Assembly (NCBI GenBank): GCA_031081675.1
Contig: JAVHLZ010000013.1
Span: forward strand, 1 to 64,000
From: Armatimonadota bacterium
GTDB lineage: Bacteria; Sysuimicrobiota; Sysuimicrobiia; Sysuimicrobiales; Kaftiobacteriaceae
Length of the DNA stretch: 64,000 nucleotides
Reading direction: 5' to 3'
Below the pieces are notes generated by a model. It ran no database searches and was not told the origin of the DNA. It saw nothing but the letters and a program-made list of their open reading frames with translations. This document shows, one piece after another, positions 16,085-23,961 of the stretch (position 1 is the first letter of the stretch; the number at the start of each line of letters is the position of its first letter). A program made the position numbers and the translations under genes.

Positions 16085-16549
16085 CTACTCCTCCGTCACC
16101 TCCCAGGCGTGCTCGATGGCGACGCAGCCCCGCAGCGTCTGGGCCACCGGGCAGCCGCGCTCGAACACCGGCAGGATGCGCTCCACCTGTTCGCGCTGGC
16201 CGGCTGGAATCTTGAGATGGTACCTCACCCGGATGCGGGTCACTTTGAGCACGCCCTCGGGGGCTTCCACGGTCCCTTCGGCCTCGGTCCACAGCCTGTC
16301 GGGGTAGCTGGGTATCCCGCGCGCCTCCAGCGCGCCGGCCAGGGTGCCGGTCAGTCAGCCGGCGGCGGCGGCCACCAGGTAGTCCAGCGTCGAGGGCAGG
16401 GGCTCGTCGGGAGAGATCTTGTAGAAGGACGCCACCTCCGAGTGGACGCCGAAGACGATAGGCTGGTCAAAGGGCGCCACGTAGGCGCGCCGGCGGGGGC
16501 GCCTGTCCTGGTAGACCCTGACACGGGCGGTGTAGACCGGCTCGGCCAT
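16085..16549 (-). CDS. OsmC-like selenoprotein (in-frame UGA = Sec65)
   Basis: A 154-aa OsmC/Ohr-type peroxidase that is read through only if the TGA at complement(16355-16357) is decoded as selenocysteine. The N-terminal part (residues 1-64, ending STLDYLVAAAAG) and the C-terminal part (LTGTLAGALEARGIP to the GCPVAQTLRGC block) are in one frame with no other stop. The UGA falls exactly where OsmC proteins carry the peroxidatic Cys; the second family Cys is present as Cys133 in ERGCPVAQ. OsmC proteins reduce organic hydroperoxides with thiols in the cytoplasm, and Sec-containing OsmC-like proteins are a known selenoprotein family. GGAGGTG lies 7 nt before the ATG. A SECIS-like hairpin follows the UGA. 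Standard gene calling would split this into two ORFs of about 60 aa. Confidence 0.85.
16319..16335 (-). promoter_or_regulatory. Candidate bacterial SECIS hairpin of the OsmC-like gene
   Basis: Reading the minus strand, 19 nt after the UGA begins a perfect 6-bp stem GCGCGC/GCGCGC with the 5-nt loop TGGAG (G at loop position 2). Two further C-G pairs follow beyond one mismatch at the base. The UGA-to-loop distance is 25 nt, inside the range known for SelB-binding bacterial SECIS elements. Confidence 0.6.
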
Positions 16550-16550
16550 C

Positions 16551-16580
16551 GGACACCTCCGAGCGGGTTCCTTATAGAAT
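16551..16580 (+). promoter_or_regulatory. Possible promoter giving a leaderless mRNA
   Basis: TAGAAT (16575-16580) stands 6 nt before the GTG start at 16587 with no RBS between, as expected for a -10 box of a leaderless transcript. A weak -35-like GGACAC lies at 16551-16556 with 18 bp spacing. It sits in the 37-bp divergent gap with the selenoprotein gene. Confidence 0.35.
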
Positions 16581-23034: not shown

Positions 23035-23961
23035 ATGAGCCCACAGGCCGCCTTCCCTGCGGGTCTGACACCCACACCCTCTCGTAGCGTTTCCCGGTGG
23101 CTGAAAGCCGCGGCCCGCGAGACCTGGTTCCACGTCCTCGGGGCCGTAGTCCTGATCATCTACATTACTCCCTTCCTGTGGATGATCCTGGGCAGCCTAC
23201 GCCGGGAGGTGGAGATCTTCCAGTACACCTATCCACTGACCTGGCGCACATTTGTGCCCGTCGAGTGGTCCCTCAAGAATTTCCAGGACGTCCTCGGACT
23301 GTCACCCGAGGGCCGGGCGTTCGGCCTCAACTTCGGACGCGCCCTTCTGAACACTGCCCTCGTCTCCGGCGCCGTGGTCCTGAGCTCCCTCATCTTCAAC
23401 ACGATGGGGGCCTACTTCTTCGCACGGCTGGACTTTCCGTACAAGGGCGTCCTGCTCCTTTTCGTCATCGCCACCATGCTGCTGCCCTTTGAGGCCGTGA
23501 TGGTCCCCCTGTACATCGTGGTGCGCTCTCTGGGCCTGCAGGACTCCTACTGGGCATTGATCCTGCCGTGGTACGCCAGCCCCTTCGTCATCTTTGCCCT
23601 TGTGCAGTTCTTCAAGGAAATTCCCCGCGAACTGGATGAGGCGGCCATCATCGACGGTGCGTCATACTTCGGCGTCCTGCGACATGTCGTCGTTCCCAAC
23701 GCCATTCCCGGCCTGGTCACGACCGCCTTGCTGGAATTTCAATTCATCTGGAACCTGTTCTATTGGCCGCTCATTGCCGTGGGGCGCAAGGAGCTCCAGA
23801 CAATCCAGGTGGCCATCGCTCAACAGACCACCCAGACCCAGATCTACTGGGGACGTATCTTCGCGGGGTCAGTCCTGGCGTCAGTTCCGGTCATCTTGCT
23901 GTTCCTGGCCATGCAGCGCTATTACGTTAAGGGTGTCGCCATGTCCGGCCTTAAGGGCTGA
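23035..23961 (+). CDS. ABC sugar-type transporter permease 2
   Basis: A 308-aa inner-membrane permease (MalG/UgpE class), six membrane segments, with the EAA loop DEAAIIDGASYFGVLRHVV. The N-terminal cytoplasmic tail of about 30 residues precedes the first segment. It forms the heterodimeric channel with the preceding gene product, while the ATPase is not encoded beside them. Confidence 0.9.
   Translation: MSPQAAFPAGLTPTPSRSVSRWLKAAARETWFHVLGAVVLIIYITPFLWMILGSLRREVEIFQYTYPLTWRTFVPVEWSLKNFQDVLGLSPEGRAFGLNFGRALLNTALVSGAVVLSSLIFNTMGAYFFARLDFPYKGVLLLFVIATMLLPFEAVMVPLYIVVRSLGLQDSYWALILPWYASPFVIFALVQFFKEIPRELDEAAIIDGASYFGVLRHVVVPNAIPGLVTTALLEFQFIWNLFYWPLIAVGRKELQTIQVAIAQQTTQTQIYWGRIFAGSVLASVPVILLFLAMQRYYVKGVAMSGLKG

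Follow-up and report, generated by a model that had tools for sequence, protein, structure and literature searches.

Introduction

Selenocysteine (Sec)-containing OsmC proteins have been on record since 2005, when three sequences with the motif UxxT (COG1765/PF02566) were described from the Sargasso Sea, in a family that also had Cys homologues (PMC1088965), and a 2026 review still gives UxxT as the Sec-OsmC motif (PMC13188914). Among the Cys-based relatives, Xylella Ohr has a triad of Cys61, Arg19 and Glu51, and the disulfide between its Cys61 and Cys125 is reduced by a lipoylated protein (PMC5962072). Here we describe an OsmC-type gene from a 64,000-nucleotide stretch of bacterial DNA, referred to as the window, in which the initial annotation had read an in-frame TGA as a Sec codon at the peroxidatic position. 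Our analysis supports that reading and places the gene in a group that appears distinct from the Sec-OsmC proteins described so far.

Results

The gene lies on the minus strand (complement 16085–16549) and runs from an ATG at 16549 to a TAG stop at 16087–16085; its sole interruption is an in-frame TGA at 16357–16355. Translated through this codon, it encodes an OsmC-fold product of 154 residues with Sec at position 65 (U65), the start, middle and end of which read MAEPVY...LVAAAAGULTGTLAGALEARGI...ERGCPVAQ...EVTEE. Gene calling with translation table 11 instead returns two ORFs, one of 64 residues (16355–16549) and a GTG-started one of 61 residues (16085–16270). The Pfam OsmC model scores 56.6 bits against the read-through protein (cut-off 27.5) over residues 52–147, spanning the TGA, which bears out the earlier proposal, exact in its coordinates, that a single OsmC protein is split here. 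The ribosome-binding site proposed for the first half is likewise present, as a Shine-Dalgarno-like GGAGG at 16560–16556 on the minus strand, 6 nt 5′ of the ATG. When the 64-kb window was scanned by codon usage for TGAs lying between two coding stretches, three sites emerged, this one included; the two others were judged to be ordinary gene ends.

Homologues were collected by protein searches of the GTDB genome collection, with patterns that exclude residue 65, and of 43 genomes of the window's class, and by searching 301 genomes from the Thermoflexus phylum with a profile. The loci and the Chloroflexota matches combined make a set of 109 distinct homologous proteins. At 33% identity or more, the U65 column holds TGA in 88 of 88 loci (the window included), and all 30 Chloroflexota matches that cover the column have TGA as well. 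The statement that the codon is always TGA is based on these two samples instead of on our codon tally, which was pre-filtered for TGA. The column thus shows none of the variability that the initial annotation had named as speaking against Sec. The next OsmC groups, at about 33% identity or lower, have TGC at this position. No Cys form of the subfamily was found among the searched homologues, Cys being seen only in clearly different OsmC groups, and no plasmid copies of the subfamily were found. By the titles of the records, which may err for metagenome-assembled genomes (e.g., L022), 35 of 59 are Gemmatimonadota and 13 Chloroflexota/Thermomicrobiota, with Myxococcota, Nitrospinota, Thermodesulfobacteriota, Acidobacteriota and Actinomycetota also represented. 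Long branches and numerous open forks mark the subfamily tree, which was left out of any inference on the order of events. With homology extending across the UGA and Cys or Sec in the aligned column of the homologues, as expected of a bacterial selenoprotein, these comparisons indicate that the window TGA is a Sec codon.

AlphaFold2, run on 24 subfamily members, predicts an OsmC fold with confidence (mean pLDDT 93.7, pTM 0.85), and the best Foldseek matches (1ukk, 2onf and 1qwi/1nye) are all OsmC; among solved structures, the closest belong to Thermus OsmC, Ta0195, E. coli OsmC and Ohr proteins. A profile alignment to 1ukk pairs U65 with the Cys of 'AGC' and C133 with the Cys of 'GCPVSR', so that both earlier claims about the active site, namely that the UGA occupies the reactive-Cys position of the family and that the second family Cys is kept, agree with the solved OsmC structures. 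The curated Pfam cut-off, the fold and the two redox residues together place the protein in the OsmC/Ohr superfamily (PF02566). Cys133 (codon at 16151–16153, minus strand) is found in 107 of the 107 distinct homologues covering the position, and the motif U65-x-x-G68-T69 is invariant in all 109. The residues that are invariant or nearly so are R20, D56, G68, T69, A73, L74, R77 and C133. R20, 45 residues before U65 (codon at 16490–16492, minus strand), is present in 104/105, and D56, nine before U65 (codon at 16382–16384, minus strand), in 109/109. These two residues are candidates for the roles of Arg and Glu in the Ohr triad.

The hairpin that had been noted downstream of the UGA is also present. 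It starts 19 nt after the UGA (16319–16335, minus strand), with a 6-bp stem formed by 16335–16330 and 16324–16319 and the loop UGGAG, which has G at positions 2 and 3 (GCGCGC-UGGAG-GCGCGC); as in bacterial SECIS elements, the stem-loop is shortly downstream of the UGA and a G occurs in the first two loop positions. Folding energy was rejected as proof of a SECIS: the 51-nt stretch gives z = −0.72, which is uninformative alone in GC-rich DNA, and the isolated 17-mer gives z = −2.9. We therefore turned to covariation and codon conservation. None of the six stem pairs is broken in 94 of the 96 distinct sequences compared, the exceptions being L108 (three pairs broken) and L158 (one pair broken), and G is found at loop position 2 in 95 of the 96. 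The pair 27–35 is unbroken throughout (G-C in 61, A-U in 26, C-G in 7 and G-U in 2 of the 96), though A-U and C-G can arise only if codons 73 and 76 change together, and they represent few, clade-wide events, so that these counts should not be overread. In an alignment of 44 sequences, 98.5% of the cells are paired, 14 are double-change cells and the covariation score is 0.268; none of 500 shuffles reached these values for pairing, double changes or covariation, and all three lie above the slid controls. Synonymous change is suppressed at codons 72 (GGC/GGT), 74, 76 and 77 (CGC/CGT), such that Leu74 is CTG in 107/109 and Ala76 is GCG in 63/63, while the same residues at columns outside the hairpin use several codons freely. 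Codon 75, the third base of which lies in the loop, varies freely. On this evidence of pairing and codon use, the hairpin can be regarded as a genuine bacterial SECIS.

The more disrupted of the two exceptions, L108, is a 46%-identical relative from a genome of the same family (G018); it retains the TGA despite the three broken pairs. That genome, 85% complete, yielded no good tRNA-Sec, and L108 is possibly a decaying copy or one with a different SECIS.

All four genes of Sec decoding, on which the initial reading depends, are present in the window genome (2.29 Mb, 98% complete; the window lies within contig C13). selA, selB and tRNA-Sec (selC) are clustered on contig C5, where SelB scores 370.7 bits (cut-off 242), the SelA ORF was identified by eye from sequence upstream of selB, and the tRNA-Sec, with anticodon UCA, scores 77.8 bits and is also called by ARAGORN. 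SelD is encoded on C2 (384.7 bits). The selD gene itself (L118; G000:C2:79352-80272, minus strand) is interrupted by an in-frame TGA at the known Sec position, where its product reads VACAG*ASKLG, and a hairpin follows. No Sec-type formate dehydrogenase was found in the window genome, either as a match over the cut-off or by an in-frame TGA. Across the class, SelB is over its cut-off in 18 and tRNA-Sec reaches at least 60 bits in 17 of the 21 genomes with the Sec-OsmC gene, and the two that have neither are 68% and 87% complete. The association is not strict, as SelB also occurs in 13 of the 22 class genomes that lack the gene. One class genome, G029, contains two selB/tRNA-Sec loci (G029:C34:5051-7033 and G029:C11:65169-68679), the first of which scores far higher (452 bits); the genome either has two systems for Sec or includes a contig that is contamination.

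A comparison of ORF clusters gave no conserved neighbour common across phyla as a clue to function, yielding mostly antisense ORFs and clade-local genes; the window gene is flanked by a spermidine-synthase-like gene and a formamidase. In Thermoflexus-like Chloroflexota (L033:15-5961, L035, L132 and L134), the Sec-OsmC gene directly follows TlpA-like and CcdA-like genes, with MerB-like genes upstream and a CopZ-N-like (zinc-binding-domain) gene after it. In L033 a MerA-type reductase gene is also found upstream, at the start of the retrieved stretch. The CcdA-like label comes from reading the sequence, with no Pfam match. This gene set is possibly a mercury/thiol cluster. The mer link was seen in the Thermoflexus group alone and is absent at the window's own locus.

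Discussion

A TGA lies one base from the Cys codons, and ordinary gene calling gives two fragments, both of which would fit a TGC or TGT damaged by sequencing or assembly error or within a pseudogene. We consider this ruled out by the universal TGA of the subfamily, which recurs in all 88 loci over many independent assemblies and several phyla, and again in the 30 Chloroflexota matches. The remaining frame is moreover intact, with its conserved residues, and synonymous change is constrained at the SECIS. An assembly error, which the initial annotation had listed among the threats to its proposal, is excluded on the same grounds. In the genetic codes of some bacteria UGA stands for Trp or Gly, and one could picture the present lineage having reassigned the codon to Trp, or the codon simply being passed by stop-codon read-through. 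The chance of either is negligible. Reassignment is ruled out by a tRNA-Sec with anticodon UCA, a standard SECIS after the UGA and the fact that all other OsmC groups sampled have Cys, and neither Trp nor Gly, as the aligned residue; other genes of the window also end normally at TGA, such as the permease gene that ends at 23959–23961. The best explanation, to which we assign a probability of about 95%, is a Sec-containing OsmC-fold protein whose UGA is decoded through SelB, tRNA-Sec and the SECIS, and for which we infer an Ohr/OsmC-like thiol-peroxidase action. The frame, Sec column, SECIS, decoding genes, OsmC fold and U65/C133 pair are the computed part of this explanation.

In the mechanism that we propose for this putative Sec-containing peroxidase, SelB and tRNA-Sec(UCA) would insert Sec at UGA codon 65 under the direction of the SECIS hairpin, which starts 19 nt downstream within the coding sequence. 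The selenolate of U65, activated by Arg20 and Asp56, would then attack an organic hydroperoxide, Cys133 would resolve the selenenic acid to a selenenyl-sulfide, and a dithiol of the lipoylated-protein or thioredoxin type would regenerate the enzyme. The product is best inferred to be a peroxidase of the Ohr/OsmC kind that attacks through a selenolate, and Sec may raise its reactivity with hydroperoxides, as had been suggested. Against peroxidase activity stand the position of the acidic residue, at −9 versus −10 in Ohr, and the identity of 11–23% to the solved OsmC structures. A true selenoprotein could also serve a role other than hydroperoxide reduction, in redox or soft-metal chemistry (disulfide, organometal or mercury) where selenium is irreplaceable by sulfur. 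That the clade yielded no Cys version, in contrast to the Sec-OsmC family of 2005, favors such a role, as do a motif and a neighborhood unlike those of Ohr and the MerB-like, TlpA-like, CcdA-like and CopZ-N genes that cluster with the Thermoflexus copies (L033 and L035, with the MerA-type gene in L033). The mer link was, however, seen in the Thermoflexus group alone, the window gene has the quite different neighbors given above, and the set of U65, C133, Arg20 and Asp56 is compatible with an active site of the Ohr type. We hold the non-peroxidase role to be possible but considerably less probable than not.

The subfamily adds to OsmC a group in which only Sec forms were found, spanning Chloroflexota, Gemmatimonadota, Myxococcota, Acidobacteriota, Actinomycetota and others. 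As standard annotation cuts its genes into two short ORFs, a dedicated model would fix many genomes. It is conceivable, if on balance doubtful, that this is a large and ancient multi-phylum OsmC lineage that stays Sec-only because its chemistry is impossible with sulfur, largely overlooked through its UGA stops and the lack of a curated model. If so, the Sec-only chemistry might be, for example, that of an unusually reactive hydroperoxidase or a soft-metal or organometal reaction. Having yielded no Cys form, the clade is well suited to the question of why selenium is retained in some proteins, and the copies within the Thermoflexus mer cluster offer a concrete test.

Compared with the OsmC/Ohr thiol peroxidases (1ukk, 1nye/1qwi and Xylella Ohr, 4xx2), the window protein shares a common fold, with TM-scores of about 0.6–0.8, and two redox positions, but has Sec where they have Cys, at the low identity noted above. 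It scores below the cut-offs of TIGR03562 and TIGR03563, and indeed none of the NCBIfam models is matched over its cut-off by the window protein. The open-access literature searched describes no OsmC selenoproteins other than the UxxT type, and one NCBIfam selenoprotein model matched. This model, NF041052 ('OsmC-related (seleno)protein', OsmC_like_Se), gives 28 bits on the window protein against a cut-off of 95, so the protein is not a member; it matches 7 of 24 subfamily members at E ≤ 1e-5, the best at 1e-9, compared with 1.1e-39 for a true member. The Sargasso Sec-OsmC proteins and NF041052 share with the window group the OsmC fold and the placement of Sec in the reactive-Cys column, but differ in motif, UxxT versus GU-x-x-G-T; for the Sargasso sequences the comparison was made via the published motif and NF041052. 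The same model finds a TGA-containing OsmC in Thermoflexus with the sequence AFUVLTQL, of UxxT type (UVLT), such that Thermoflexus has both kinds of Sec-OsmC, the NF041052 type and the window-group type. In the NF041052 UxxT-type OsmC L123 (genome G044), a hairpin follows the in-frame TGA. A third kind, 'LGAUTSMTI' (L126, genome G048), likewise combines an in-frame TGA in the Cys column of OsmC with a downstream hairpin, but is distant in sequence from the window group and lies on a long branch far off in the tree.

The initial annotation had described Sec-OsmC proteins as known but rare. That they are known is correct. The window group is not rare, and by its motif and its NF041052 score it is not simply the known Sec-OsmC. 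Lacking a curated model, it is set apart from the described Sec-OsmC proteins, as far as these sequence comparisons can tell, by its motif, by Sec in every copy and by its presence in several phyla. OsmC accordingly holds at least three sequence-distinct Sec groups: the UxxT type, the LGAUTSMTI kind and the group of the window protein.
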